A stretch of DNA of 42,892 nt from a virus. The DNA lies in the IMG/VR virus record IMGVR_UViG_3300030117_000512, positions 1 through 42,892 of that record. One strand, 5' to 3'. Below the pieces are notes generated by a model, which was not told the DNA's origin, did no database searches, and worked only from the letters and a program-made list of their open reading frames with translations. Both the position numbers and the translations under genes were made by a program. Positions 1,919 through 22,693 of the stretch are shown here, piece after piece; the first letter of the stretch is position 1, and every line of letters begins with the position of its first letter.

Positions 1919-4314
1919 TATTTAATTCTTCCTATGATATAACATATTGGCTCAAGTATAGCTCTTTCAATAGAACCTCTTATATGACGCTTACCATGTT
2001 TTTGTAACCATATATCAGCAGTTCTTCTACGTGCTATGCCTTCAAGTGTGTTTTTGAGTAGTTTATTATACCATGCGTCATTTTTGTAGGCAAGTTTTAT
2101 TAGAGGTTTAAATATTCTATGATATCCTTTTTGATACGCAGGGTGCATATTTTTACTATGACTTAGCCATATTGCTTGTCTAAACGAACCAAAACCATAT
2201 GAATTATTCATAGCAGTGCATACTATTTTATCTCCACCACCTCCACTTGATGCTGCATCGTCAGCAAATGTTCTACTCAAGTCTTGACCTTGTGTTGGGT
2301 CTACTACTGTTCCTGAATCAGAATCATCACTCATGGCTTGAGCTGCGATTTCGTCTGCCCTTGCTCTAGCAGCCATTCTATCTGCTTTTGCCCTCTCCTC
2401 TGAAATCTCAAAAGCTGTATCATCTTCTATGTCACTAGCTATTTTACCTAGGCTAACTGCTGTAACTGTTCCTCTATCTTTTGTTTCTTCTTGCTCCATT
2501 TGCTCTGTTGCATAATCATTGTAAGCTTCTTTTTCTGATTTAGATAAGTCGTTGTATGCATCTTCTGCTGATTTACTTATATCAAAACCTAATAAAGATT
2601 TTTCTTTAGTTTCTTTTGTTATTCTATCTGCTATCTCTTTTCCTAAACCTGTCTTAGGATCAGTTATATCTTCGTAACTTACAGGGTTTCCTGTTGTCTT
2701 ATCTGTATATCCTACTTTAGGGTCAAACACAATTTGATCTTTGTTTAATTTGTCTAAAGTGTTCATTCTTTCTGTAAACTTTTTAGCAAAGTCACCTGTT
2801 ACATCATTCTTTATCTTCATAAAATCTGCAAAAGAAACTGTTTTAGTTATGTTGCCTTTAGTAAAGTCTACAGTAGTTCCTTTTGGAGCTTTGCCTCCTA
2901 TTATTCCAGGTAAAGAAGCCAAGCCTAGTATTCCAGGAAGCTGACCCGGAACATTGTATCTTAGGTCAAATGTGGTTGCACCTGTTTGTAGTCCAGGTCT
3001 GTTAGGGTCTTTGTCTCCACCGATTGATAAAGTAGCTGACGATACTTTCGCACTACCACTGTCATCTCCACCAGTATCTACAGGTTTTACTTTAGTAGTT
3101 TCTGTTTTTGTTTTATCGTCTTTCTTAGTGGGAGATATACCAGTGTCAGGTGTAAATCCGTCTGCCTCTAACTGTGCTAACTGTGCGGGATTTAAAGGTT
3201 GACCTGTTCCTACAATAAAAGGAACAAATCTTACTTGACTGCCTTTTGTATATTTTCTACTTTCTGTTTTCACTTGACCTGTAGAGGATTGTGGTAATAG
3301 TGATTTAAATGTAGCTGGAGCATACGGAGTGACACCACCCGGTGTGTACATCTGACCTATATTAGGATTATATACATTAGGGTTATTCATGGTTGTGACT
3401 TGATTAGGCATAGCTGTTGGATTGCCCATAGGGTTAGGCACTACACCACCAACTTGCATTTCTAATGGGTCATCTTCCATGTCTAGATCGTCTATAGTAA
3501 ATGGTATGTCATCAGGAAGTGTTGCTTCATCAGAATTACCCATCTGACCCATCTCTTCCATTTTTTGTAGTCCTGCCTTAGCTCTTTGTCTTAGCTTCAT
3601 TAAAAAGTCTAGACCTAGGTATCTTACAACATCTGCAGGAAAAACAAACTCACCTTCACTAAGTCTAGCTGGTATATCATCTCTTACTTCTTCTTTTGTA
3701 GATCCCGGTGGAACTTCATTGCCTGATTCTTCATCTACTTCTCCACCTTCATCTTTTAGTCCACCCTCACTAAAAGAATAATTTTTCTTTAATAGTTTAT
3801 ACAACTCAACAAAATTTTCTTTTTCTTTAAGAGACAGGTCGTTTATTTTTCCTGAAGTTAACATTTTTGTCATGTTGTCAAATTGAATTTTTCTAGCATC
3901 TTTTTTTTCTTTTGCTTCTTTATCTAGTTTACTAGTGTCAATAGAAGTATCGCCTCCTTCAAACATCTCCATTTGTTTTGGTATGCCACCTTTTTTAAAT
4001 CCTACACTAGGGTTTTTCTTGAGGTCTTCCTTACTTACTACCGTTTTTACACCTCTTATTTTATCTATTAATTTAGCTCTTTTTTCAGATTCTTCGTTTG
4101 GTTCGCTTGGAGGATAATATAATAAATTTCCTGGATTGTTAATAGCTTTATCAGGATTAGTTTTAAACTCTATGATTGAATCATTGTAACCCAAAACATT
4201 TGGATCAGCGGCCATCTCACTAACCATTTTCATGTCATCATCAGGTCGTTTTTTAGGAAGCTCTTGTTTTTGTGTCTCTGCTTTAGCTATATCTTTATCT
4301 TTTTTCTTCGCCAT
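1918..4314 (-). CDS. Large head-associated protein, mostly disordered, with conserved C-terminal domain
   Basis: 798 aa. Residues 1-700 are low-complexity, charged and Gly/Pro/Thr-rich, with one compact motif near residue 215 (RLSEGEFVFPADVVRYLGL) that recurs in marine podovirus virion proteins. The last 100 residues form a distinct domain (CTAMNNSYGFGSFRQAIW ... YQKGYHRIF), rich in aromatic and basic residues. This C-terminal domain occurs in several marine phage proteins without known function. The gene follows the portal gene, which suggests a connector, ejection or virion-bound role. Function is inferred from position only. Confidence 0.65.
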   Translation of the reverse strand: MAKKKDKDIAKAETQKQELPKKRPDDDMKMVSEMAADPNVLGYNDSIIEFKTNPDKAINNPGNLLYYPPSEPNEESEKRAKLIDKIRGVKTVVSKEDLKKNPSVGFKKGGIPKQMEMFEGGDTSIDTSKLDKEAKEKKDARKIQFDNMTKMLTSGKINDLSLKEKENFVELYKLLKKNYSFSEGGLKDEGGEVDEESGNEVPPGSTKEEVRDDIPARLSEGEFVFPADVVRYLGLDFLMKLRQRAKAGLQKMEEMGQMGNSDEATLPDDIPFTIDDLDMEDDPLEMQVGGVVPNPMGNPTAMPNQVTTMNNPNVYNPNIGQMYTPGGVTPYAPATFKSLLPQSSTGQVKTESRKYTKGSQVRFVPFIVGTGQPLNPAQLAQLEADGFTPDTGISPTKKDDKTKTETTKVKPVDTGGDDSGSAKVSSATLSIGGDKDPNRPGLQTGATTFDLRYNVPGQLPGILGLASLPGIIGGKAPKGTTVDFTKGNITKTVSFADFMKIKNDVTGDFAKKFTERMNTLDKLNKDQIVFDPKVGYTDKTTGNPVSYEDITDPKTGLGKEIADRITKETKEKSLLGFDISKSAEDAYNDLSKSEKEAYNDYATEQMEQEETKDRGTVTAVSLGKIASDIEDDTAFEISEERAKADRMAARARADEIAAQAMSDDSDSGTVVDPTQGQDLSRTFADDAASSGGGGDKIVCTAMNNSYGFGSFRQAIWLSHSKNMHPAYQKGYHRIFKPLIKLAYKNDAWYNKLLKNTLEGIARRRTADIWLQKHGKRHIRGSIERAILEPICYIIGRIK

Positions 4315-4504: not shown

Positions 4505-6575
4505 CTTGTGCTACTCCCGAAAATCCTTGTTCTCCAGGTCTAGGAGCTTGTCCTGTACCTATCGTTCCCCCACCTACACCTGTTGGGTCATTTGGATTAA
4601 GACCTGCGGGTGGTTGTTGTTGTGGCATATCCCCTCTAAATTCTTTTAGTAACTCTGCTTGTCTTGCTGCTTCATCCATATTGTTAGTAACTTTGTCAGG
4701 ATCTAAGTCCATAGCCTTTGCTATTTCACGAATGATAAAGTTAAACTTAGCAAATGGAGCAAGTGCAGGATTAGACGCAGTTTGTAAGAACTGCATAAGT
4801 CTTTGTGACCTAACTTCGTTAGCCATGAGACTTTCTGTTCCTCTTGCTTTGACTTCTAGATCACCTCTTATTTCAGGGTCAAAGTCAAATTGCATATTAA
4901 ATCTAAATAAACCTTCGCCTAAAGGTTTTAATAAATAGTCATCTATATTTTTTATTACAGTCTTTATACTACCACTTGCGGCATTCATCAACATAGATAT
5001 ACCTGATGCAGTTCTACCCACACCTGTTACACCAGTTTGACCATGAGCAAATGATGGAAAGCCAGTGCTTTCGTCTGCTAACACTCTTGCTTTATCAAAC
5101 AACTGCATATTCTCATTTGATACGTTAGGGAACTTAGTTCCAAATATAGCTTGACCCGGAGCACCACCTTGTCTTCTGAATATCTTTCCCGGATATACAG
5201 ATAGATCTTGTCCTGGTACTAGGTTTGTTTCATCTACTTCTATGAGTAAATTGCCTGATAATACTGCGTTGTCTACAGCCATTCTCATAAAGCCATTCAT
5301 TAGAGTTTGTGTGTCATCCATATTCTCTGCTAGACCAACACCAAAGAATGAGTACGGATTTAACTCGTATGGTGCGGCCATGTAAGGTATCTTTGCAGGT
5401 TTGAATGGATTTAACACTGCTCTTAGAACTCTACCACCACATACCCAAATATTAGCTTGTAGTTCGTCAAAGTCTTGTAGTTCTTTTGGTATATCTACTT
5501 CTTGTTCTTCTAGCATTGCAGTATCAATCATACCCCAATACTCAAACACTTCAAATCTTTCTACATAGTTTTCTTGGTTATAGTCTGTTAGATCGTCTTC
5601 CCAATACTTCTTTACGTAGTTCTCTCCATCCATGATAACGCTCTCAATAACGTTTTCTCTAAAGAATGGTCTACGTTTTAAAGAACGTAACTCTGTTCTT
5701 GACATCTTATGTCTTTCAATAACGTATTGTGCTTGATCTATGTTTGTAGAGTCAGGGTCTGGATAGAAGTTCCAAACAGACACATGACTTATCTGTGGTG
5801 TTGTTTTAAATGTAGGATCATACTTGCCTTCTGCATCCCAATTAGGATATTCTTTATCTAAAGCAAAAGGTCCTTTCATAACTCCAGTTCCAAATAGAGA
5901 CATCTCAAATGCAGTGCTTCTTAAATGTTTGTTAGCTCCTGATTCCTCTAGTTGGTCTGTTATTTTCTTTTCCATACTTTTTGCTGCAACCATCGCAGGG
6001 CTGAACGTGATCGCTGTCGGAGTTTTACCCACACCTTCTTCAAGGTTTTTAATTTCCGACAAATCATCTTCCAAAGGTCCAAGCCTATCAAGTAAACTTT
6101 TTTCAGTAGAGCCTTTAGGGAGTTCCATGCCATCACCACTGAAACCATAAGGTGAAGTGATTGGAGAATCTCCACTAAGCTCTTGAGGTTTTTTCGGATC
6201 AAAGTTAACATCTTTCGCTACTCCTTCTGGTAATGTTGTAGGTTCTATGCTAATGGGAAACTTATTTCCAGCAAACAAAACATCAACTATTTGACCATAA
6301 GCAGCCAATGTTTTTGTTTTAGTTATCTTTATAAATACTCTAGATTTTTCTGCTTCAGTAAACTGAACATCAGGACCATAGATCCCTCTGTAGTTTCTGT
6401 AAGCTCTTGTCCATCTAAGTTCATCTTCGTATCTGTAGTCTTCAGACTTTTTGAACTTAGTCATTACATAGTCTGCTAATTTAGAAGCTGAAGAGTCATC
6501 TTCAGTGTCGTTTTCCTTAACGTCATTTAAAGCGATTGCTTCTTCTTCTTCTAGTAAAATATCTTCTTCTGCCAT
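4443..6575 (-). CDS. Portal (head-tail connector) protein
   Basis: 710 aa, within the 500-750 aa range of podovirus portals. It forms the dodecameric ring through which DNA enters and leaves the head. Features: an acidic N terminus, a central alpha/beta region (YRNYRGIYGPD, SVWNFYPDPDSTNIDQAQYV, FEVFEYWGMID), the segment GVGLAENMDDTQTLMNGFMR typical of this portal family, and a Pro/Gln/Gly-rich tail. ATG 6575 is chosen because it has a GGA box 7 nt upstream; the longer TTG start at 6587 would overlap the terminase end. It follows the terminase gene directly. Confidence 0.85.
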   Translation of the reverse strand: MAEEDILLEEEEAIALNDVKENDTEDDSSASKLADYVMTKFKKSEDYRYEDELRWTRAYRNYRGIYGPDVQFTEAEKSRVFIKITKTKTLAAYGQIVDVLFAGNKFPISIEPTTLPEGVAKDVNFDPKKPQELSGDSPITSPYGFSGDGMELPKGSTEKSLLDRLGPLEDDLSEIKNLEEGVGKTPTAITFSPAMVAAKSMEKKITDQLEESGANKHLRSTAFEMSLFGTGVMKGPFALDKEYPNWDAEGKYDPTFKTTPQISHVSVWNFYPDPDSTNIDQAQYVIERHKMSRTELRSLKRRPFFRENVIESVIMDGENYVKKYWEDDLTDYNQENYVERFEVFEYWGMIDTAMLEEQEVDIPKELQDFDELQANIWVCGGRVLRAVLNPFKPAKIPYMAAPYELNPYSFFGVGLAENMDDTQTLMNGFMRMAVDNAVLSGNLLIEVDETNLVPGQDLSVYPGKIFRRQGGAPGQAIFGTKFPNVSNENMQLFDKARVLADESTGFPSFAHGQTGVTGVGRTASGISMLMNAASGSIKTVIKNIDDYLLKPLGEGLFRFNMQFDFDPEIRGDLEVKARGTESLMANEVRSQRLMQFLQTASNPALAPFAKFNFIIREIAKAMDLDPDKVTNNMDEAARQAELLKEFRGDMPQQQPPAGLNPNDPTGVGGGTIGTGQAPRPGEQGFSGVAQGGQTDTQQSQAAGQSPTPSE

Positions 6576-9215: not shown

Positions 9216-9337
9216 CGTCTAAGTCCTAATTTCATTTGTTGTTTACGTATTTCTTTTACGTGTAGATGCCAAAAATAGTTTCCCACTTTACTAATTATAG
9301 CAGAAATCTTTAAAAATGTCAAGGCTTTCCAACTCAT
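9212..9337 (-). CDS. 41-aa basic protein of the lysis cassette
   Basis: MSWKALTFLKISAIISKVG... with an N-terminal hydrophobic stretch and a basic tail (HVKEIRKQQMKLGLRR). Its ATG overlaps the holin stop (ATGA) and its stop overlaps the lysozyme ATG, so it fits exactly between them. Possible small lysis regulator or membrane-associated peptide. It also contains a perfect promoter sequence (9294-9322), so part of the protein sequence may be constrained by that. Confidence 0.6.
   Translation of the reverse strand: MSWKALTFLKISAIISKVGNYFWHLHVKEIRKQQMKLGLRR
9294..9322 (-). promoter_or_regulatory. Perfect-consensus sigma70 promoter before lysozyme and packaging genes
   Basis: Minus strand TTGACA (9322-9317), exactly 17 nt, TATAAT (9299-9294): 12 of 12 consensus bases with ideal spacing. 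It lies inside the 41-aa gene and would start transcripts near 9287, serving lysozyme, terminases, portal and scaffold. Confidence 0.75.
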
Positions 9338-15151: not shown

Positions 15152-15356
15152 CCTCTAACATTCCTTCTGCTTTCATAGCGTTCTCTACGTGCTTCAGCGT
15201 ATAACGTTTACCTGTCTTTGCTTCTATCGCAGCACGAGTGTAAAATACGGAACTGTGAGGAATATGTAACTTATGTAAAGTATTTGTACGAATCGCATCG
15301 TAAAATGATTCTAAAATATTCTCTGGTGTATATAGTTTTACTGATTTTTTACTCAT
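15144..15356 (-). CDS. First gene of the leftward late operon, conserved hypothetical
   Basis: 70 aa from ATG 15356 (a TTG two codons earlier is less likely). LYTPENILESFYDAIRTNTL then IPHSSVFYTRAAIEAKTGKR and LKHVENAMKAEGML suggest a small helical, winged-helix-like fold. It is preceded by a 116-nt leader from a perfect promoter. No clear Shine-Dalgarno. Its first position suggests a regulatory or early-late role; function unknown. Confidence 0.7.
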   Translation of the reverse strand: MSKKSVKLYTPENILESFYDAIRTNTLHKLHIPHSSVFYTRAAIEAKTGKRYTLKHVENAMKAEGMLEDV

Positions 15357-15478
15357 TGTCAAGAAACAATTTATTTAGCACGGAATTTATTGGGGTAATT
15401 TTAGTTTTACTATGTAGTTATAGTGTTTATTATAGTTATATACTACTTATAGTTGACTACTTAGTTTTACTATACATA

Positions 15479-15507
15479 ATTATACTCGGTTTTTGACTTT
15501 TTGTCAA
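15479..15507 (-). promoter_or_regulatory. Perfect-consensus sigma70 promoter of the leftward late operon
   Basis: Minus strand TTGACA (15507-15502), exactly 17 nt, TATAAT (15484-15479): all 12 bases match. It points at the gene starting at 15356 and the whole 15-kb late operon. The -35 is part of a TTGAC-TTTTT-GTCAA palindrome, which could also bind a regulator. Confidence 0.8.
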
Positions 15508-15683
15508 GTAAAATATTTTATCTGCGTTTTTACTGCCTAAAATATACCTTTTTTTATATGCTAATCTGCAGCATTTCAACAGTTAGTTAAGTGGTTAACA
15601 CTTGAAATACCTAATCTGTGTATATATCCATGATACGTACTACTACCAGGGGTGTACCCCCAGCCCCCCTATGCCAAAAAAGT

Positions 15684-15690
15684 GTCATAG
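15684..15690 (+). promoter_or_regulatory. Half-site of the GTCATAG palindrome
   Basis: GTCATAG with the usual upstream context (AAAAAAGT) but a right arm reading CTAGCCA in place of CTATGAC. Looks like a decayed or half site. Confidence 0.35.
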
Positions 15691-15735
15691 TCTAGCCAAA
15701 AATAAAAAATATTCTATTGATATTGCTTAAAATTA

Positions 15736-15829
15736 TCTAATTTCTAGAAACTGATAAGAAAACAGTTTATAGTTATAGCTTAAATCGTCATAGGCTATGA
15801 CGTTTTTACTATGATAGTTTCTAATTAGA
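15736..15829. repeat. Inverted repeat flanking palindrome copy 1
   Basis: TCTAATTTCTAGAAACTGAT at 15736 is matched in inverted orientation by CTATGATAGTTTCTAATTAG at 15809, with a 3-base gap. The exact palindrome at 15787-15801 lies between the arms. Confidence 0.45.
15787..15801. promoter_or_regulatory. GTCATAG palindrome, copy 1
   Basis: GTCATAG-G-CTATGAC, flanked by C and G to give a 17-bp palindrome, followed by TTTTT. Lies in the noncoding control region. Confidence 0.7.
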
Positions 15830-15838
15830 ATATTTAAA

Positions 15839-15937
15839 CATATATCTATATATTTTTATGAGCTTCAAAATAAACTATCTATACACATATTAATTTTATA
15901 AGCTCATACTCTATTACATACGCATATATAGATATAT
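15839..15937. repeat. Nested AT-rich inverted repeats
   Basis: Outer arms ATATATCTATATAT (15840-15853) and ATATATAGATATAT (15924-15937) are exact complements. Inner arms TATGAGCTT (15857-15865) and AAGCTCATA (15900-15908) are exact too. The right outer arm directly abuts a TTGACA box at 15939. Could be an unwinding element or cruciform of an origin. Confidence 0.6.
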
Positions 15938-15938
15938 A

Positions 15939-15966
15939 TTGACACTAAACGTAAATGCTTTAATAT
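15939..15966 (+). promoter_or_regulatory. Rightward promoter for the first early gene
   Basis: TTGACA (15939-15944), 16-nt spacer, TAATAT (15961-15966; 4 of 6 bases). It begins TTGACACTA, as do four other early promoter candidates. Start of transcription would be about 50 bp before the ATG at 16026. Confidence 0.55.
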
Positions 15967-16025
15967 TTATATTGAAGCTTAAAAAGTTTCATAATTTTAA
16001 TTTAACAATATGAAAGGTAAAAATT

Positions 16026-16778
16026 ATGTTAAATTTATTTAAAAACAAAAAGACTAAAAACGAAAACGTAAAGCCAAAATTATCAATAGCTAAACAAATA
16101 AATAATCTTAGTAGTTTTGATAATATTAAATCTACTGTTAAAACTTGTTTAGATAATCGTCAAAATACCTATAAGAGTTTTATTGATAATTTACCATATG
16201 AGATAGCACTAGGTAGTTATTTAAATAATCTAGATAGTGAAGCTTCTAATCAAAAGAATAGAAATAAATGGAAGCATAACGAATTAGCTAAAAATGGATT
16301 TGGTATTCATACGACTAATGAGAAAAATCAAAGTAAATTTGAGTATACAGTTTTTACAAAACAAGAATTGAATGTGAGAAAACAAGCTTTTAAACATTCT
16401 ACTATGTTTTATAATTACTGTAGTAAAAACGATTACACTAGTTTTGTTTATGCTTGGCAGAATTTTAGAAAAGATAATATTGAATTATTTGCTACAAGTG
16501 ATAATTCAAAACAAGCTTCACATAATCGTAAAACTACTAAACAATCTAAAACTAATAAAAAAGAAGCTTCTAAAAATACAGTTTCTTTTGATAGTCAGAA
16601 AATGCTAGAGAAAATTGTTAGTAATAAATCTTATAAAGAATTATCTAATGAAGCACTTGCAAAGCAATGTTTAGTTTTAGTGCAAGTTATGTATGCCGAA
16701 AATGGTATGGATTTTGACAAGCTTATGACTAACGATAAAACTAAAACCCCAATATTAAAAGCTTTAAAAATAGCATAA
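16026..16778 (+). CDS. Isolated early gene, Asn/Lys-rich hypothetical protein
   Basis: 250 aa with very high Asn, Lys and Ser and strongly AT-biased codons, more so than neighbouring genes. Hydrophilic throughout: a basic N terminus, a central segment with FEYTVFTKQELNVRKQAF and YTSFVYAWQNFRKDNIEL, a Ser/Lys/Thr linker (about 158-185), and a helical C terminus (ELSNEALAKQCLVLVQVMYA). AAAGG precedes the ATG. It has its own promoter and two terminators. First early gene or acquired 'moron'; a host-takeover factor is possible. Family not recognised. Confidence 0.75.
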   Translation: MLNLFKNKKTKNENVKPKLSIAKQINNLSSFDNIKSTVKTCLDNRQNTYKSFIDNLPYEIALGSYLNNLDSEASNQKNRNKWKHNELAKNGFGIHTTNEKNQSKFEYTVFTKQELNVRKQAFKHSTMFYNYCSKNDYTSFVYAWQNFRKDNIELFATSDNSKQASHNRKTTKQSKTNKKEASKNTVSFDSQKMLEKIVSNKSYKELSNEALAKQCLVLVQVMYAENGMDFDKLMTNDKTKTPILKALKIA

Positions 16779-16802
16779 CTTAAAAATACAAACTTTAAAA
16801 TT

Positions 16803-16829
16803 AGCCTAGTTTTTTACTAGGCTTTTTTT
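16803..16829 (+). terminator. Rho-independent terminator 1 after the isolated gene
   Basis: Stem AGCCTAGT / ACTAGGCT (8 bp, perfect), 5-nt T loop, then seven T. Begins 25 bp after the stop codon. Confidence 0.88.
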
Positions 16830-16860
16830 ATGCCTTAAATTAATTACAATATATTCTTAT

Positions 16861-16892
16861 AGCTATCATTTTTTAGTGATAGCTTTTTTTTT
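16861..16892 (+). terminator. Rho-independent terminator 2
   Basis: Stem AGCTATCA / TGATAGCT (8 bp, perfect), 8-nt loop, then a run of T. A second terminator within 35 bp isolates the upstream gene from the rightward operon. Confidence 0.85.
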
Positions 16893-16905
16893 ATCTTTAA
16901 AAAGT

Positions 16906-16920
16906 GTCATAGCCTATGAC
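16906..16920. promoter_or_regulatory. GTCATAG palindrome, copy 2
   Basis: GTCATAG-C-CTATGAC, preceded by AAAAAGT and followed by GTTTTT. Lies 14 bp after the second terminator. Confidence 0.7.
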
Positions 16921-16951
16921 GTTTTTCTTTCCCTATGCTCATAAAGGTCGT

Positions 16952-17047
16952 GACTACGGTCATAACTAGAGAGGTCTTGAGCAGATCAACTGTAGCAAAA
17001 TCCAGGACTTGTTGCAGTTTCCCTAACTACGGTCTTAACTAGAGAAG
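16952..17047 (+). repeat. Two direct repeats, 73 bp apart
   Basis: ACTACGGTCATAACTAGAGA at 16953 recurs as ACTACGGTCTTAACTAGAGA at 17026, one mismatch in 20. They lie in a 384-bp stretch (16779-17162) without genes, which otherwise holds two terminators, two palindromes and a promoter module. Possible regulator sites or parts of a small RNA. Confidence 0.5.
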
Positions 17048-17061
17048 CAATCGGCTATGGC

Positions 17062-17101
17062 TTGACACTACCTACTGCTATGCTAGGCTTATAGATAATC
17101 A
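17062..17101 (+). promoter_or_regulatory. TTGACACTAC...ATAATCA module, copy 1
   Basis: TTGACACTAC, 23 variable bases containing CTATGCTAGGCT, then ATAATCA. The -35-like box is exact, but a -10 at the usual distance is unclear (TTATAG is 21 nt away). Precedes the rightward small-gene cluster starting at 17163. Confidence 0.55.
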
Positions 17102-17118
17102 CAGTAGTGGTTACTGTG
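17100..17118 (+). other. Hairpin before palindrome copy 3
   Basis: CACAGTA / TACTGTG, 7-bp stem with a 5-nt loop, 10 bp upstream of the palindrome. No T-tract. Confidence 0.45.
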
Positions 17119-17128
17119 GTGCAAAAGT

Positions 17129-17143
17129 GTCATAGACTATGAC
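17129..17143. promoter_or_regulatory. GTCATAG palindrome, copy 3
   Basis: GTCATAG-A-CTATGAC, preceded by AAAAGT and followed by GATTTT. Lies 19 bp before the start of the gene at 17163, in its leader. Confidence 0.75.
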
Positions 17144-17162
17144 GATTTTAGAAAGGTATATT

Positions 17163-17384
17163 ATGAGAATACATTATAACGACAGACCGAACTTAGCTAA
17201 GAGTGCTATTGGCAGACTATATATGCATCAGCCTAGAGGTAGGTACTACACGTATTACGAGATGGATCGTATAGGTGCATATGAAGCTACGTTTGTTATA
17301 GAAGCAGAAAAGCGAAAGTATCATCAGAAAAGAATTAAGCAATTCAGTAACGAGTTAGATCAACTATTAGAGGGGGAAGACTAA
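17163..17384 (+). CDS. Early hypothetical protein
   Basis: 73 aa, starting MRIHYNDRPNLAKSAIGRLY. Start 17163 is chosen because AAAGG stands upstream; a further in-frame ATG at 17139 lies inside the palindrome without RBS. Tyr/Arg-rich N-terminal half (RGRYYTYYEMDRIGAYEA), then a charged helix. No family recognised. First gene of an early cluster with overlapping stops and starts. Confidence 0.7.
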   Translation: MRIHYNDRPNLAKSAIGRLYMHQPRGRYYTYYEMDRIGAYEATFVIEAEKRKYHQKRIKQFSNELDQLLEGED

Positions 17385-17608
17385 TGGAAGACTTTGAGAA
17401 TACCTATATAGGCAAACTGTGGTATATTCTTTTGAGTGATGACAAGAGATCATTCAATGAATATTTCTCAGAGGAGCATGGCATCACATTAAATGATGAC
17501 ATCACAGATAAACAATTAACTTTTCTGTGTAAGCTTCTAATGAGATTAGGCGATAAGAAATTAATTCAAGTTGATTCAATTAGAGAATATATGAAGGAGG
17601 AACTATAA
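17384..17608 (+). CDS. Early hypothetical acidic protein
   Basis: 74 aa, MEDFENTYIGKLWYILLSDD..., acidic and helical. ATG overlaps the previous stop (TAATG) behind an AGGGGGAAG ribosome-binding site. Soluble, no membrane segment. Small acidic early proteins often inhibit host enzymes, but nothing here identifies a target. Confidence 0.7.
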   Translation: MEDFENTYIGKLWYILLSDDKRSFNEYFSEEHGITLNDDITDKQLTFLCKLLMRLGDKKLIQVDSIREYMKEEL

Positions 17609-17760
17609 TGTTTATTAACTTAGAAAACGTCATAGACTATGACGATAATACTATCCAAGAAGAGCAATCACAAATGCTTTACACCACATGGGAAGAAGCA
17701 ACTGAGATAAGCTTTGATGAAGCACAACAACAACTAGAAAGGAAACAGTTATGGATATAA
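17608..17760 (+). CDS. 50-aa early protein carrying the palindrome in frame
   Basis: MFINLENVIDYDDNTIQEEQ then SQMLYTTWEEATEISFDEAQ and a short basic end. GGAGGAAC lies before the ATG. Codons 8-13 (N-V-I-D-Y-D) are made by the GTCATAG palindrome at 17629. Highly acidic. The reading frame continues correctly across the palindrome, and the next gene starts inside its end (17751). No family recognised. Confidence 0.65.
   Translation: MFINLENVIDYDDNTIQEEQSQMLYTTWEEATEISFDEAQQQLERKQLWI
17629..17643. promoter_or_regulatory. GTCATAG palindrome, copy 4 (inside a gene)
   Basis: GTCATAG-A-CTATGAC preceded by AAAAC and followed by GATAA. Lies in the coding sequence of the 50-aa gene, 19 bp after its start codon. 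Confidence 0.75.
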
Positions 17761-17927
17761 GAGATATGTTATGTGATATGTATGATATTAGAAGGCAAGT
17801 AAAACAAGCTAAATTATTTGATGCACCAAAAGATAATGAGGGCAGTTCCATTACTGTTGGTGAATGTATTGACAATGTTATTGAGCAATTATCAGATAAG
17901 CTTGAAACAGTAGAGGAGATTTCGTAG
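17751..17927 (+). CDS. 58-aa early protein with a fused paralog tail
   Basis: MDIRDMLCDMYDIRRQVKQA and onwards, ending KLETVEEIS. AAAGGAAAC precedes the ATG. The last nine codons share exact DNA with two separated parts of the gene at 19233 (its LETV near the start and its VEEIS end), joined at GTA. The tail therefore looks like the scar of an internal deletion in a second copy of that gene. No family recognised. Confidence 0.65.
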   Translation: MDIRDMLCDMYDIRRQVKQAKLFDAPKDNEGSSITVGECIDNVIEQLSDKLETVEEIS

Positions 17928-17934
17928 TGCTAAA
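17909..17934 (+). repeat. 26-bp direct repeat, copy A
   Basis: Identical to 19490-19515. Contains the end of VEEIS, its stop, a GAGGAG ribosome-binding site and a GTG start. Here the GTG opens only a five-codon frame (17927-17944), so the downstream gene is missing. Confidence 0.8.
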
Positions 17935-17967
17935 TGAGTTTTGACTAGTCTAGGATTTTGGTTGGTA

Positions 17968-18008
17968 TTGACACTACCCATAACTATGATAGGCTATTTA
18001 CATAATCA
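17968..18008 (+). promoter_or_regulatory. TTGACACTAC...ATAATCA module, copy 2
   Basis: TTGACACTAC, 24 bases containing ATAACTATGATAGGCTAT, then ATAATCA and AACGA. Lies in the 110-bp gap before the gene at 18038 and probably drives it. Confidence 0.6.
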
Positions 18009-18037
18009 AACGACTAACTTTTATAGGAGATATTATT

Positions 18038-18310
18038 ATGATTAAGTTTGATATTTTAGAAAGAGTGAAAGCAGAAAACACTCTACGACTTCTTAGAAAA
18101 GAAGGTTACTTTCCTACTTTCAAGAATACTAGAAGCTACAAGGTACGACTACATGAGATTACACTTACTAAAAGTGGCTTACATTATGTAGTGCATAAGA
18201 GTAAAGAAAGCTTTTACTTTCCTACTACTTATAAGAACTCTTGTACTCTTATTAAGAACTACAAGGGCAAGGGGTTTATACAAAAGCCTTTAATTAAAAA
18301 AGTGTCATAG
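18038..18310 (+). CDS. Early hypothetical basic protein
   Basis: 90 aa, MIKFDILERVKAENTLRLLR..., Lys/Tyr/Thr-rich with probable beta-rich middle (YKVRLHEITLTKSGLHYVVH). ATAGGAG lies before the ATG. Its stop TAG is itself the last three bases of the left arm of palindrome copy 5. Net basic, so nucleic-acid binding is possible. No family recognised. Confidence 0.7.
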   Translation: MIKFDILERVKAENTLRLLRKEGYFPTFKNTRSYKVRLHEITLTKSGLHYVVHKSKESFYFPTTYKNSCTLIKNYKGKGFIQKPLIKKVS

Positions 18311-18318
18311 ACTATGAC
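18304..18318. promoter_or_regulatory. GTCATAG palindrome, copy 5 (across a stop codon)
   Basis: GTCATAG-A-CTATGAC preceded by AAAAAAGT and followed by GATTT. The upstream gene stops within it (TAG 18308-18310); the next gene starts 21 bp downstream. Confidence 0.75.
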
Positions 18319-18338
18319 GATTTACAAGGGGAAAAACT

Positions 18339-19019
18339 ATGTCATATAAATTATTTGGGGTTGGTACTAATACCAAAGTTGTCAAAGGTGATGGTTCAGA
18401 ATACATGACTGCCATCATGCACCTCAAACCTAAAAACAAAAGAGTGTGTCCATTTCAAGATGTAGCTAACTGTAAAGATGCTTGTTTAGATTCTGCTGGT
18501 CGTGGTGTATTCACAAGTGTGCAAAGTGCTAGAGAAAGAAAGACTGATCTTTGGCTTACTGATAAAGTTACATTCATGGAGTATATGTATCAAGACATGA
18601 CTGTCTTTAGACGTAGAATGCACAATAAAGGTGTTCAACCTTGTGCTAGACCTAATGGCACTAGCGACATACCTTTTGAGAGAACTAATCTCATGTATGA
18701 CTTTAGCGACATACAGTTCTATGATTACACCAAGACTTATAAGAGAGTGTATAGTAAGTTACCACCTAACTACCATCTCACACTATCTTATAGTGAAGCT
18801 AACATGGATTATGCAGAAAAGATATATCAAGCAGTTCTTGACACAAACACGAACATGGCAGTTGTGTCTACTCTACCTATGCCTAAAAAGTTCAGAGATT
18901 TAGATTGCATCAATGGAGATGAAGATGATCTACGATTCCTTGATCCTCAAGGTGTAGTTGTGTGGTTGTCTGCCAAGGGCAAAGCTAAAAAAGACACAAG
19001 TGGCTTTGTTATACATTAA
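18339..19019 (+). CDS. GP88-family protein
   Basis: 226 aa. MHLKPKNKRVCPFQDVANCK followed by DACLDSAGRGVFTSVQSARE, a KTDLW segment and RPNGTSDIPFERTNLM are the signature of the phage 'gene product 88' family (Cys-rich N terminus, then R-x-N-G-T-S-D). Four cysteines in the N-terminal part may hold a metal or iron-sulphur site. Widely spread in phages and some plasmids; biochemical role unknown. Lies between two palindrome copies, in the early block. Confidence 0.8.
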   Translation: MSYKLFGVGTNTKVVKGDGSEYMTAIMHLKPKNKRVCPFQDVANCKDACLDSAGRGVFTSVQSARERKTDLWLTDKVTFMEYMYQDMTVFRRRMHNKGVQPCARPNGTSDIPFERTNLMYDFSDIQFYDYTKTYKRVYSKLPPNYHLTLSYSEANMDYAEKIYQAVLDTNTNMAVVSTLPMPKKFRDLDCINGDEDDLRFLDPQGVVVWLSAKGKAKKDTSGFVIH

Positions 19020-19026
19020 TCAAAAC

Positions 19027-19041
19027 GTCATAGACTATGAC
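19027..19041. promoter_or_regulatory. GTCATAG palindrome, copy 6
   Basis: GTCATAG-A-CTATGAC preceded by AAAAC and followed by GAATTTT. Lies 7 bp after the GP88 stop and 22 bp before the next ATG. Confidence 0.75.
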
Positions 19042-19063
19042 GAATTTTAATAGGAGAAATAAA

Positions 19064-19231
19064 ATGCTTATAAAAATAATAACAATAGTAACTCTAATCA
19101 TGGCAACTGTAATAGGTGTCCTATCTTTTTCTGAACTATCAGAACATAGTGGTATCTTGTACATAGGTACGTGGACATTTTCAGTATTAGCTATAAGCGA
19201 AACATTTAGAAGATTAGTAAAGGGGATATAA
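19064..19231 (+). CDS. Small two-TM membrane protein
   Basis: 55 aa: MLIKIITIVTLIMATVIGVL forms one membrane segment and GILYIGTWTFSVLAI a second, with a basic C terminus (RRLVKGI). Start 19064 is preceded by AGGAG; an earlier in-frame ATG lies inside the palindrome and has no RBS. Possible superinfection-exclusion or membrane-modifying protein, no family recognised. Confidence 0.65.
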   Translation: MLIKIITIVTLIMATVIGVLSFSELSEHSGILYIGTWTFSVLAISETFRRLVKGI

Positions 19232-19232
19232 G

Positions 19233-19508
19233 ATGACTAAAAAAACTATGCTTGAAACAGTATTTCCAAATGCGAATACCAACAATGGTGTTACATTTAC
19301 TGAAGAAAATATAGATCAAGACTACAAAGATGGTTGGAGATATATAGTTTGGGTAGGTGGTAATGATGACTACTACAAGAACTATAAAGATGCCAAGCGA
19401 GATGCTGAAGAATGGAAAGACAAAGGCTATGATGATGTTATCATTGAGGAAATAGTAAAAAAACCTTCAGGTTGTTTTGTACATAAAAAAGTAGAGGAGA
19501 TTTCGTAG
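19233..19508 (+). CDS. Early hypothetical acidic protein
   Basis: 91 aa. The middle (GWRYIVWVGGNDDYYKNYKD then AKRDAEEWKDKGYDDVIIEE) looks like a compact beta-alpha-beta domain rich in Asp and Tyr. AGGGG lies upstream. Parts of its sequence recur at the end of the 17751 gene, suggesting an earlier second copy. No family recognised. Confidence 0.65.
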   Translation: MTKKTMLETVFPNANTNNGVTFTEENIDQDYKDGWRYIVWVGGNDDYYKNYKDAKRDAEEWKDKGYDDVIIEEIVKKPSGCFVHKKVEEIS

Positions 19509-19515
19509 TGCTAAA
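19490..19515 (+). repeat. 26-bp direct repeat, copy B
   Basis: Identical to 17909-17934. Here the GTG at 19508 opens a real 46-aa frame, so this copy appears to be the intact source. Confidence 0.8.
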
Positions 19516-19648
19516 AAAGAACTATAAAGAATCCTGGAAATTTCAGAGAAAGATGATCAACAGAATCAGAGAGAATAGAATAAGACTACTTGTCAAGACT
19601 TGTATTAGAAAACTAAAAAGGGAGAAAAGATATGCTACAAGTAACTAG
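19508..19648 (+). CDS. 46-aa basic microprotein (GTG start)
   Basis: VLKKNYKESWKFQRKMINRI then RENRIRLLVKTCIRKLKREK, over one third Lys/Arg, a probable single amphipathic helix. The GTG shares its G with the preceding stop (TAGTG) and has GAGGAG 9 nt upstream; its end overlaps the next gene's start. Could bind RNA or DNA. No family recognised. Confidence 0.55.
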   Translation: MLKKNYKESWKFQRKMINRIRENRIRLLVKTCIRKLKREKRYATSN

Positions 19649-19859
19649 AAAATCTATCTTGACGGGCAACACGACTACAATGTCATTGCCTATCACACAA
19701 GAGCAACTAGATTTGTATGAGAACAGTAAAGTCTTCATACAAGATGCTTTTCCTAACTTGGATAAGCATGACAGAGAGTTCATTAAAACTGGAATAACCA
19801 AACAAGAATGGACTAAATTAATATTAGATAATAGCACAATGAATGAAGGAGAAATCTAA
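19632..19859 (+). CDS. Conserved phage hypothetical protein
   Basis: 75 aa. RKSILTGNTTTMSLPITQEQ then LDLYENSKVFIQDAFPNLDK and HDREFIKTGITKQEW form a pattern shared with many marine and T7-like phages: short beta-hairpin start and helical end that includes the F-I-x-T-G-I-T turn. GGAG precedes the ATG. Function unknown; probably a small regulator or inhibitor in the early block. Confidence 0.75.
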   Translation: MLQVTRKSILTGNTTTMSLPITQEQLDLYENSKVFIQDAFPNLDKHDREFIKTGITKQEWTKLILDNSTMNEGEI

Positions 19860-20398
19860 TGAAAGTAAATAAACATTTAAAGATTGATGCGATAACCAAC
19901 TCAACAGGTAGACTACCAAGAGACATGGAGAACTTGGAGATATACCATTACCCATCATCTAAGAAAGAGCCTATCAACGTAGGCGAGATGGACTTGACGT
20001 ATCTCATACGAGCATTCGCTAAGTGTCAGAGGACTCTCATGGAGAACAGTCCTACCGAGCAGTATCACGATCTGCATGGCAAGATAGCAAAGCTAGAGGA
20101 GATGCTTGAAGAGAAAGATGAGATCATAGATAAGTTTGTTAAAGAAGAACATAGATGGAGAAAAGCATATCATGATAACTTCAATCTTGAAGGACATAGA
20201 TATATCTTCAGCGACATACCCAACGATGCTAGTGGTAGGGCATTCGTTGCACAACTAAGAGAATATCTTAACACAGATTCCTACAAGATAAGAGTGCGTG
20301 GTCAGTATCTAATTGATGGCGAAGATTGGAAAAGATATTCTTATGGTCAGCCTATAGAAAAGTCCAAGTGTCTAAGAGTATATGTGGACAAGAAATGA
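19859..20398 (+). CDS. Early hypothetical protein with central coiled coil
   Basis: 179 aa. N-terminal part unclear; central heptad-like helix (HGKIAKLEEMLEEKDEIIDK, about 89-115); C-terminal part with GHRYIFSDIPNDASGRAFVA and VRGQYLIDGEDWKRY, likely a small alpha/beta domain. ATG overlaps the previous stop (TAATG). Soluble. No family recognised. Confidence 0.65.
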   Translation: MKVNKHLKIDAITNSTGRLPRDMENLEIYHYPSSKKEPINVGEMDLTYLIRAFAKCQRTLMENSPTEQYHDLHGKIAKLEEMLEEKDEIIDKFVKEEHRWRKAYHDNFNLEGHRYIFSDIPNDASGRAFVAQLREYLNTDSYKIRVRGQYLIDGEDWKRYSYGQPIEKSKCLRVYVDKK

Positions 20399-20649
20399 GA
20401 ATAGCTTCACTAGAAAAACCACAAGGGATAACTTGGAGAACTGCTAAAAGATTCAAGGCAGATTTCTATCATGCCAAGTTTCCCATATGTGGTGGTTATT
20501 TAGTCTACGCAGTTGTAGGTCGCAAGTGGGTACGTGTTACACAAGGGGATTTAGTTTCTACTGATAAGAGTACACGCACCCATCTTGCTAGATTCAAAAT
20601 GCCACTAAGTGAATGGCAACAGTTAAACAAGGAGAAGTTCAATGAGTAA
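20395..20649 (+). CDS. Early hypothetical basic protein
   Basis: 84 aa from ATG 20395, whose stop/start overlap with the previous gene (ATGA) supports it over a start 69 bp upstream. MRIASLEKPQGITWRTAKRF and GGYLVYAVVGRKWVRVTQGD suggest a small beta-barrel-like fold with basic surface. No family recognised. Confidence 0.65.
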   Translation: MRIASLEKPQGITWRTAKRFKADFYHAKFPICGGYLVYAVVGRKWVRVTQGDLVSTDKSTRTHLARFKMPLSEWQQLNKEKFNE

Positions 20650-20860
20650 AGTATTATACCAAGTACGTAAAGGTACTCACGTTCAATGGAGTTTAGATAA
20701 GTATGATCTTCAGAAAGTTACAAATGGAAACTCAATGATACCTCAACTAGATGGTGTCAAAATAGAGAAGATAAAATTTGATTCATACAAACAGATGGTT
20801 GATCACATGAGTAATATTATTCAACTCATATCCTATTTAAGAAACAGAGGGGTAAATTAA
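20642..20860 (+). CDS. Early hypothetical protein
   Basis: 72 aa, MSKVLYQVRKGTHVQWSLDK..., ending SNIIQLISYLRNRGVN. AAGGAG lies before the ATG, inside the previous gene. Mixed beta/alpha, soluble. No family recognised. Confidence 0.65.
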   Translation: MSKVLYQVRKGTHVQWSLDKYDLQKVTNGNSMIPQLDGVKIEKIKFDSYKQMVDHMSNIIQLISYLRNRGVN

Positions 20861-20861
20861 A

Positions 20862-21044
20862 ATGACTTTAAAAGAAAAGATTGAGTTTATAGTTCAACAA
20901 GAGAAAGCTTCCAACAATTCCTGGAAATGGATAGCATTTGCAGATGCGAAAACTATAAATGATTTGTATGAATATTGGACTCAAGAAGAGAACCCCAACG
21001 AGGGGATTGACACTACTGATAACTGTAGTAGTATAAACACATAA
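20862..21044 (+). CDS. Early hypothetical protein, end overlaps a promoter module
   Basis: 60 aa: MTLKEKIEFIVQQEKASNNS then WKWIAFADAKTINDLYEYWT and an Asn/Thr/Asp-rich tail encoded by the TTGACACTAC module at 21007. The N-terminal part looks like a helix pair. GAGGGG precedes the ATG. No family recognised; the tail may be there only because the promoter lies in it. Confidence 0.6.
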   Translation: MTLKEKIEFIVQQEKASNNSWKWIAFADAKTINDLYEYWTQEENPNEGIDTTDNCSSINT

Positions 21045-21047
21045 TCA
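21007..21047 (+). promoter_or_regulatory. TTGACACTAC...ATAATCA module, copy 3
   Basis: TTGACACTAC, 24 bases with a small ACTAC/GTAGT palindrome and TATAAA (19 nt after TTGACA), then ATAATCA and AAACGA. Lies at the end of the 60-aa gene, just before the gene at 21064. Confidence 0.6.
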
Positions 21048-21063
21048 AAACGAGGAGAGTGTA

Positions 21064-21423
21064 ATGAAAGCTTATTTCATAAATGCAAAAGACGAACTTA
21101 TAGTAGAAACTGACATCAAGAATTGGGATCATAAGAAAGAACTCATAGGTGCTCGTATGCTAGAGAGATACCCATACTCTGTAAATGGTAACGATCTATG
21201 GACAAACGAAGAAGCATTGTTTGGAGATTATTCATATGACTTTGTTATTGATAACTGTATCGTGCATGGTAACGCAGTAGTGCTAGGCACAGATGACGAG
21301 AAGCATGAATCCATAGATGTGAATCACTTGGCTTTGATCAATCTTAAATCAAGAGTTAAGTTCTTAGGCAAGAGATGGATTGATCATGATAAAATAAAGT
21401 TCCAAGTAATGGAATGGAAGTAA
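21064..21423 (+). CDS. Early hypothetical protein, DUF3846-like layout
   Basis: 119 aa. MKAYFINAKDELIVETDIKN start, NGNDLWTNEEALFGDYSYDF middle and IDNCIVHGNAVVLGTDDE later resemble the arrangement of DUF3846-type phage proteins (small beta-rich domain with a 'D-E-A-L' turn and a conserved G-x-A-x-V-x-G). The family match is weak. RBS GAGGAG. Function unknown. Confidence 0.6.
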   Translation: MKAYFINAKDELIVETDIKNWDHKKELIGARMLERYPYSVNGNDLWTNEEALFGDYSYDFVIDNCIVHGNAVVLGTDDEKHESIDVNHLALINLKSRVKFLGKRWIDHDKIKFQVMEWK

Positions 21424-21435
21424 GGAGTATCAGTA

Positions 21436-21522
21436 ATGTTTCCTAATGATAAAGATACATTAGTAATATTAATTGTGAGTGGAATAGTTATGCTATTCCT
21501 CTCATGCTACATGGGAGTGTAA
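21436..21522 (+). CDS. 28-aa single-TM microprotein
   Basis: MFPNDKDTLVILIVSGIVML then FLSCYMGV: a short acidic head and one membrane helix. AAGGAG lies 8 nt before the ATG, and the stop is 1 bp from the next gene's ATG. Very small membrane peptides of this kind may modulate the host envelope. No family recognised. Confidence 0.55.
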   Translation: MFPNDKDTLVILIVSGIVMLFLSCYMGV

Positions 21523-21523
21523 C

Positions 21524-22693
21524 ATGAATGTACTAAGTTTATTTGATGGCATGAGTTGTGGACAACTTGCCTTACAGAGGATAGGTGCAAAAGTAAACAA
21601 CTACTTTGCTTCAGAGATTGATCCATATGCAATCAAGATAGCCAAGAAAAACTTCCCTAATATGGTGCACGTAGGAGATGTAACCAATGTTATGAAAGGT
21701 ATTCCTATAGATAAGGTCAAGGATGATTGTCTGCTAGAAATGATGGCTACAGAGATAGACCTAATACTTGCAGGATCACCTTGCCAAGGTTTTTCTTTTG
21801 CTGGTAAACAACTTAATTTTGATGATCCTCGTAGCAAATTATTCTTTGAGTTTATTAGGATTGTTAATAATATCAATACGAGAAAAGCACAGTTGGGTAA
21901 ACCACAAGTCAAGTTCTTGTTAGAAAATGTGCGTATGAAGAAAGAGTCACAAGATGTGATTACAAAAGCTCTAGGTGTTGAGCCTATGCTAATCAACTCT
22001 GCTCTTGTATCAGCACAGAATCGTAACAGATTATATTGGACTAACATACCTAATGTTACACAACCACAAGACAAAGGTATTGTGTTGTCAGACATACTAG
22101 AAGACTTACCATTTGACGAGCCACCAAACTATCTCAAGGGCAAGTGGTGTGGCAGAGTGCGAGGAGATCTTGTCAAGTCTGTTGATGATGACAAAGCACA
22201 TTGTCTTACTGCGTCTATGTGGAAAGGTCAGATACCTACGTTTGTCAAAAGCAAGAAGCCTATACAAGTTGGTGTGGCTAGTGACATCAAAGGGTATGAC
22301 ATAATCAAACGAGTGTATTCGCCACAAGGCAAGTCACCTACACTTACGACCATGCAAGGTGGACACAGAGAACCTAAAGTTGCTATTGGTCGCATTGTTA
22401 ATCGTAGGCTAGACGAGAATGGTACTAGAAAAGATGATCAACTTGAGTTGCCTTTCACGAGACAACTTGAAGTGAGTGCAGATACAAAGTCTAACTGTCT
22501 TACCACAGTTCAGAAAGATAACGTGGTAGTTAGTGAGAACTTGTATAGAAAGCTTACACCACTAGAGTGTGAGAGACTACAAACTTTACCCGACAACTAC
22601 ACAGAAGGTGTTTCCAAGACTCAACGATACAAGATGATTGGTAACGGTTGGACAGTAGATGTCATAACACATATCTTGAAGGAGATTGTATAA
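21524..22693 (+). CDS. DNA (cytosine-5-)-methyltransferase
   Basis: 389 aa. Motif I LFDGMSCG (6-13), motif II-like ASEIDPYA, motif IV GSPCQGF with catalytic Cys87, motif VI ENV (134-136), motif VIII QNRNRLYW (165-172), a target-recognition region around 200-320, and motif X GNGWTVDV near the end. All main C5-MTase motifs are present, so it is probably active, transferring methyl from SAM to cytosine. No partner restriction enzyme is nearby, which suggests protection of phage DNA from host restriction. Target sequence cannot be read from the gene. Confidence 0.92.
   Translation: MNVLSLFDGMSCGQLALQRIGAKVNNYFASEIDPYAIKIAKKNFPNMVHVGDVTNVMKGIPIDKVKDDCLLEMMATEIDLILAGSPCQGFSFAGKQLNFDDPRSKLFFEFIRIVNNINTRKAQLGKPQVKFLLENVRMKKESQDVITKALGVEPMLINSALVSAQNRNRLYWTNIPNVTQPQDKGIVLSDILEDLPFDEPPNYLKGKWCGRVRGDLVKSVDDDKAHCLTASMWKGQIPTFVKSKKPIQVGVASDIKGYDIIKRVYSPQGKSPTLTTMQGGHREPKVAIGRIVNRRLDENGTRKDDQLELPFTRQLEVSADTKSNCLTTVQKDNVVVSENLYRKLTPLECERLQTLPDNYTEGVSKTQRYKMIGNGWTVDVITHILKEIV

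Follow-up and report, generated by a model that had tools for sequence, protein, structure and literature searches.

What do three related blocks of about 41 base pairs (bp) do ahead of the early genes of a virus? The blocks, here called P1, P2 and P3, lie in a stretch of 42892 nucleotides (nt), referred to below as the window, which is part of the 50156-base IMG/VR record IMGVR_UViG_3300030117_000512. A first-pass annotation had taken them for a regulated promoter family standing before early gene groups and needing an activator or harbouring an operator in the spacer. The former part of this view stands, as the blocks appear to be related, co-oriented promoters each of which precedes an early gene group, while the need for an activator does not. 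Very probably, P1 to P3 are three paralogous promoters of three consecutive rightward early units, read by the sigma70 holoenzyme of the host. Their sequence marks them as real, conserved and seemingly ordinary, that is, as sister sigma70 promoters within a marine phage lineage.

The three copies reported at 17062, 17968 and 21007 are readily confirmed: the window contains just three matches to the pattern TTGACACTAC-N(20-27)-ATAATCA, all of them on the + strand, and three copies arose in none of 100 dinucleotide shuffles. That three strong AT-rich promoters resemble each other by chance is already refuted by these shuffles and by orthologues at matching gene junctions of sister contigs, although chance matches do turn up when very large collections are scanned with a pattern, and 38 of the 49 stretches found by our scan for both module ends look like such matches. 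As also reported, TTGACACTA is present at 15939, 17062, 17968, 21007 and 29748. These are five of its six occurrences in the window (0.62 expected; the count is reached in 0 of 100 shuffles), the sixth being located at 3941 on the - strand within a coding frame.

The -35 box had been described as exact and the -10 element as unclear or 19 to 21 nt away. TTGACA is indeed complete (six of six positions) in all three modules. The -10 hexamers, however, are found 16 nt past it, the layouts being TTGACA-16-TAGGCT-5-ATAATCA in P1, TTGACA-16-TAGGCT-6-ATAATCA in P2 and TTGACA-16-TAGTAT-6-ATAATCA in P3. Thus, all three possess a TAnnnT hexamer within the 16 to 18 nt from the -35 box which a sigma70-type promoter shows, and in P1 and P2 it is preceded by TG-n. 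The -10 element had been overlooked because TAGGCT is far from TATAAT, with which it agrees at T1, A2 and T6.

The bases at -1/+1 are C-A, 6 nt past the -10 element, in P2 and P3, and G-A, 5 nt past it, in P1. Since 6 nt is the commonest distance between -10 element and start in the transcription start site data given in the excerpted text of PMC8407463, transcription from P2 and P3 should begin with the A of ATAATCA. Among 285 non-seed viral promoters from loci carrying ATAATCAA, positions 6 to 9 past the -10 element favour T/C, A, T and A. The same Y-A-T-A preference is seen in 250 promoters of loci not selected for ATAATCAA and, more weakly, in a third set of 36; at this register it supports our placing of both -10 element and start. 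Host holoenzyme would accordingly bind TTGACA and the TAGnnT hexamer 16 nt away, which in P1 and P2 follows TG-n, and would begin transcription at the A of ATAATCA, leaving leaders of about 68 (P1), 36 (P2) and 23 nt (P3). From such a start it follows that the three messenger RNAs would share AUAAUCA at their 5' ends. Host RNA polymerase would presumably suffice, and the three promoters would be active early.

Whether this shared start reflects a wider signal can be judged from viral promoters at large. A scan for TTGACA-TGn-TATAnT-ATAATCAA returned at least 120 contigs compared with 7 for the reversed start sequence; yet, a control differing in one base, ATAAACAA, likewise returned at least 120. 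From the position frequencies in the 250 other promoters a ratio of about 14 between ATAATCAA and AACTAATA is predicted, so that the excess of ATAATCAA over its reverse arises from the ordinary Y-A-T-A start preference. The idea of a universal phage "ATAATCAA box" was therefore dropped. CTAC directly after TTGACA is no part of this wider viral class either (1 of 127 matches; control, 2 of 120). The strict pattern retrieved 87 stretches from genome_contigs, mainly from AT-rich Firmicutes and candidate phyla by title, with no marine host group prominent, and its relaxed form, applied to 50 kilobases each of named T4-like phages, gave two matches in Melnitz and none in HTVC008M and Syn9. Several marine phages, among them those of loci L195, L259, L498 and L554, possess small promoter families of their own with shared spacers (AAnnYTATT or CGAATCRTG) which end in ATAATCAA.

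The phage which carries P1 to P3 is, judged from its genes, a marine HMO-2011-type podovirus, because its DNA polymerase shares 63% identity, across 100% of its length, with the enzyme of Puniceispirillum phage HMO-2011 (53% to 62% with those of five Roseobacter CRP phages) and its gene order is that of HMO-2011, with integrase, primase, helicase and polymerase rightward and the structural genes leftward. The polymerase also contains the central DnaJ CxxCxGxG motifs typical of the group. According to the host fields of their records, named members infect SAR116, Roseobacter-group and SAR11 bacteria, and the excerpted text of PMC6918029 reports that this group is one of the most abundant among marine viruses. 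The word "promoter" does not occur in the main text of PMC9038755 or of PMC6918029, both dealing with this group, nor does the former contain "repressor", "palindrom-" or "inverted repeat"; in the listed literature on HMO-2011, or on ATAATCAA together with phage, we met no description of this module.

A mismatch-tolerant search of the fetched HMO-2011-type loci gave 15 matches with at most one mismatch, namely the three of the window plus 12 others, distributed over nine loci from eight further contigs, as L055 and L127 come from a single contig, while the next-best matches have at least three mismatches, the same level as in shuffles. In the sister phages P1, P2 and P3 are found at unchanged gene junctions. 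The conservation of both module ends which the first-pass annotation had asked for is clearly present: the -35 block and ATAATCA are invariant across nine distinct sister copies, an alignment which omits L033, L051, L028 and L127 as identical or from the same contig, and L045, whose spacer is longer by one. Invariant columns comprise TTGACACTA, position 20 (the T of TG), TAG..T (four of the six -10 positions), ATAATCA and column 43 after it, compared with 1 of 12 columns of the inner spacer and none of the six of the discriminator. Since this profile is that of a promoter, the two ends originally noticed correspond to the -35 box and the start site. The simplest explanation of the CTA(C) common to the modules after the -35 box, and of their common first seven transcribed bases, is a trace of duplication plus constraint by promoter function.

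For P2 and P3 the sequences of sister phages start to agree a few bases upstream of TTGACA; module and leader are kept, whereas the upstream gene is exchanged. This, and the fact that the three copies form a common unit with defined ends, would also be expected of a 41-bp unit spread by duplication or serving as a recombination joint, whose likeness reflects descent and not regulation. Such an origin seems improbable as the whole explanation, as the orthologues, otherwise diverged, keep the ends and the -10 element fixed and leave the inner spacer free, a promoter-like pattern for which descent alone is insufficient.

The same profile bears on the proposed activator and operator. The supposed imperfect ACTAC/GTAGT symmetry of the spacer exists in the 21007 copy and its orthologues only and is absent from the 17062 and 17968 copies. 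An operator within the spacer was discarded because the inner spacer is, apart from the discriminator, the most variable part of the module and the symmetry is confined to P3. Nor is the need for an activator supported, given the TAnnnT hexamers at 16 nt, TG-n in two of three modules and an exact TTGACA in place of the degenerate or missing -35 box of activator-dependent promoters. It could still be argued that (C/G)ATAAT at 17094, 18001 and 21040 is the true -10 element and that a phage activator bound at the TTGACACTAC region or in the spacer replaces the -35 contact: ATAAT is closer to the -10 consensus than TAGGCT, and conservation is highest at the two ends. We regard this as very improbable. 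TAG..T is invariant and always 16 nt from the exact -35 hexamer, and in L045, a distant phage of the HMO-2011 type (see below), TATAAT is complete at that place. In P3, moreover, merely 18 nt separate CATAAT from the ATG, and the start would fall within the Shine-Dalgarno stretch; on account of this spacing ATAATCA was discarded as the true -10 element.

(C/G)ATAAT could also have a different role. P1 to P3 might be sigma70 promoters with a built-in promoter-proximal pause, in which this second -10-like hexamer stalls RNA polymerase around +15 to +18 and a phage factor perhaps loads onto the paused enzyme, as Q does in lambdoid phages. The hexamer begins exactly 11 bp past the -10 element in P2 and P3 (CATAAT), the distance reported for the Escherichia coli G1d sigma70 pauses (excerpts of PMC7876045), and 10 bp past it in P1 (GATAAT), and with five of six positions it fits TATAAT better than do the -10 elements of P1 and P2. 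Furthermore, NATAAT peaks at this offset in the 285 non-seed viral promoters (18 compared with 1 to 8 at other offsets). According to the excerpted text of PMC6606751, lambdoid PR' combines a -10-like element with a Q-binding site in the spacer; our modules share the -10-like hexamer about 11 bp past the -10 element and the conserved block after the -35 box, but they stand before early genes and show no direct repeat in the spacer. Antiterm (PF03589), the Q family searched, was not found in the 50156-base record, the control in E. coli being positive. The T of the -10-like element, although invariant in the nine sister copies, is not favoured in the wider viral sample: the base after YATAA is T in 25, G in 21, A in 21 and C in 5 of 72 non-seed promoters, T at +5 has a frequency of 0.22 in the 250 independent promoters, and a control scan with A replacing T also returned at least 120 contigs. 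As the layout fits, above all in P2 and P3 with their 11 bp, yet other viral promoters show no preference for T at +5, we retain the pause as an unlikely minority reading for P1 to P3 only. Still less probable is a regulon in which ATAATCA acts as sigma70 pause element and CTA(C) as docking site of a lineage-specific antiterminator; if true, a phage group that ranks among the most abundant in the ocean would have transferred a Q-like mechanism to its early genes.

Several observations weigh against ordinary host-sigma70 promoters. TAGGCT of P1 and P2 fits the -10 consensus at just three of six positions, and P1 has a discriminator of 5 nt and G, no pyrimidine, at -1. TTGACACTA is longer than required of a -35 box, and the invariance of T+5, C+6 and A+7 goes beyond the requirements of an initiator; an extra binding constraint is therefore possible. 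A lineage-specific regulator of P1 to P3 is likewise possible and not needed. Finally, the module was not found in the wider HMO-2011 group, including six relatives which keep the neighbouring genes and lack it upstream of them (L131, L132, L128, L085, L065 and L078). The exception is L045, with a polymerase 37% identical, which displays TTGACACTAC, TATAAT at 17 nt and, 6 nt further on, ATAATCA; it was retrieved by a pattern requiring both ends, of which the -10 element was no part. By the same scan one module sequence with TATAGT at 17 nt was found to be common to L001, L004, L012 and L021; L004 looks T4-like judging from its open reading frames (ORFs).

Table 1. Predicted promoters, repeated dyads and neighbouring features. 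Positions refer to the window unless stated otherwise; L numbers denote loci of other phages.
Feature	Position	Strand	Details
P1 module	17062-17101	+	-35 TTGACA 17062-17067; TG-extended -10 TAGGCT 17084-17089; ATAATCA 17095-17101; predicted start A 17095; orthologues L014, L033, L036
P2 module	17968-18008	+	-35 TTGACA 17968-17973; TG-extended -10 TAGGCT 17990-17995; predicted start A 18002; leader to ATG 18038; orthologues L014, L051, L055
P3 module	21007-21047	+	-35 TTGACA 21007-21012; -10 TAGTAT 21029-21034; predicted start A 21041; leader to ATG 21064; orthologues L014, L051, L011, L028
P4	15939-15966	+	separate sigma70-type promoter TTGACA-16-TAATAT before ORF 16026; no ATAATCA
P5	29748-29776	+	separate promoter at 3' end of DNA polymerase gene; -10 region TGATAAAAC just past stop
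Leftward consensus sigma70 promoter	15479-15507	-	TTGACA-17-TATAAT
Second leftward promoter	48421-48449 (50156-base record)	-	tail AAAACCGAGTATAAT common to the 15507 promoter
15-bp dyad GTCATAGnCTATGAC	15787, 16906, 17129, 17629, 18304, 19027, 25530		seven copies, early region
GTCATAGnCTATGAC copy in P1 leader	17129-17143
ORF 16026	16026-16778		AT-rich, 250 amino acids; between dyads, then terminators
Terminator-like hairpins with T-runs	16803-16823, 16861-16884	+	set ORF 16026 apart from P1 unit
Dyad TGTCTG-n5-CAGACA			10 copies, L078
Dyad TTAACCAA-n-TTGGTTAA			6 copies, L128
Dyad TTACCAA-n-TTGGTAA			6 copies, L131
Dyad TCCTAA-n-TTAGGA			4 copies, L065
Dyad GTACTC-n3-GAGTAC			4 copies, L058
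Dyad TACTCA-n-TGAGTA			3 copies, L045
Dyad AGTCCG-n4-CGGACT			3 copies, HMO-2011
Dyad GTCCAA-n2-TTGGAC			5 copies, CRP-345; 4 copies, CRP-1

The sites at 15939 and 29748, which had been assigned to the same family, do not belong to it (P4 and P5, Table 1). The likeness of 29748 to the modules is a coding coincidence because the DNA polymerase ends in the residues that TTGACACTAAAGATG encodes (L-D-T-K-D), TTGACACTAA at this position being the end of its gene. P5 is nonetheless a predicted promoter, which overlaps the 3' end of this gene and is conserved across HMO-2011-type phages: TTGAC and, past the stop codon, TGATA-n-AACT are invariant in all 11 aligned relatives, chosen from more and including HMO-2011, CRP-345 and CRP-1, and most relatives read TGATATAAC in the -10 region. 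Its -10 element has no T at the last position, which is common in Alphaproteobacteria according to the excerpted text of PMC8407463. The sigma70 promoters described there, which may not be those of the host's group, resemble P1 to P3 in the TTG of the -35 box and the start 6 nt past the -10 element; most of them lack T at -7, as does P5 (TATAAC/TAAAAC), whereas P1 to P3 keep it.

Besides the two leftward promoters of Table 1, which make up a second family on the - strand with AAAACCGAGTATAAT in common, a further leftward consensus promoter is present at 9322. TTGAC-AAAAA-GTCAA lies over the -35 box of the 15507 promoter. Upstream of ORF 5287 in L131, TTGGCATGGATATTGCAT (about 5210-5250) is a single instance of what we take to resemble a sigma54 -24/-12 element.

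Phage early promoters of the T7 A1-A3 type are read by host sigma70, several near-consensus -35/-10 pairs following each other where the early region begins. The phage studied here resembles this arrangement in its row of -35/-10 promoters at the start of the early region and differs in the TAGGCT-type -10 elements and the shared first transcribed bases. A further difference is that no T7-type RNA polymerase (PF00940) for a later takeover was found in the 50156-base record, a weak negative, as the control of this search gave no match either. The leftward promoters and the failure to detect a phage polymerase fit a phage relying on host sigma70.

The early region also harbours a repeated dyad, GTCATAGnCTATGAC, with invariant arms and a variable central base. 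Its seven copies compare with at most two occurrences of the best dyad in 10 shuffles, and their positions are maintained in the sister phages. Other lineages have other dyads of 13 to 17 bp in similar places, many directly before Shine-Dalgarno sequences (Table 1); a search for repeated dyads gave none in CRP-603, CRP-2, CRP-207 and HTVC033P. Two GTCATAGnCTATGAC copies of the window are intragenic and encode V-I-D-Y-D. The one in the primase gene is unchanged in L053, L054 and L055 (76% protein identity), where 64% of the other codons for identical residues are kept; as the chance that all five dyad codons are kept is about 0.1, this is weak evidence. From the primase genes of L057, L062 and L072 (about 51% identity) the dyad has been lost. 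With one copy in the P1 leader and no copy in the neighbourhood of P2 or P3, the dyads do not explain the module. They resemble sites for a regulator specific to the lineage, possibly operators or stoperators.

The product of ORF 16026, which has no match in Pfam or PHROG, is an unproven candidate for a dyad-binding regulator. The similarly placed first ORF of L036 is 55% identical to it and those of other lineages 13% to 19%; HTH_3 was not found in the 50156-base record. P1 is preceded by the two terminator-like hairpins listed. Direct repeats, actacggtc(a/t)taactagaga, are located just upstream of P1 at 16953-16972 and 17026-17045, 73 bp apart, and are kept in L036. In the predicted P1 leader (17095-17165) a pair of hairpins would form ahead of the Shine-Dalgarno sequence (-16.1 kcal/mol, z about -2); in L036 the loop of the first one differs while the CACAG/CTGTG stem is retained. 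Rfam gave no match within 15300-22000, and a search of the window for transfer RNA genes found none.

P1 to P3 supply three predicted start sites of transcription, and the lineage-specific palindromes may be the regulatory sites proper.

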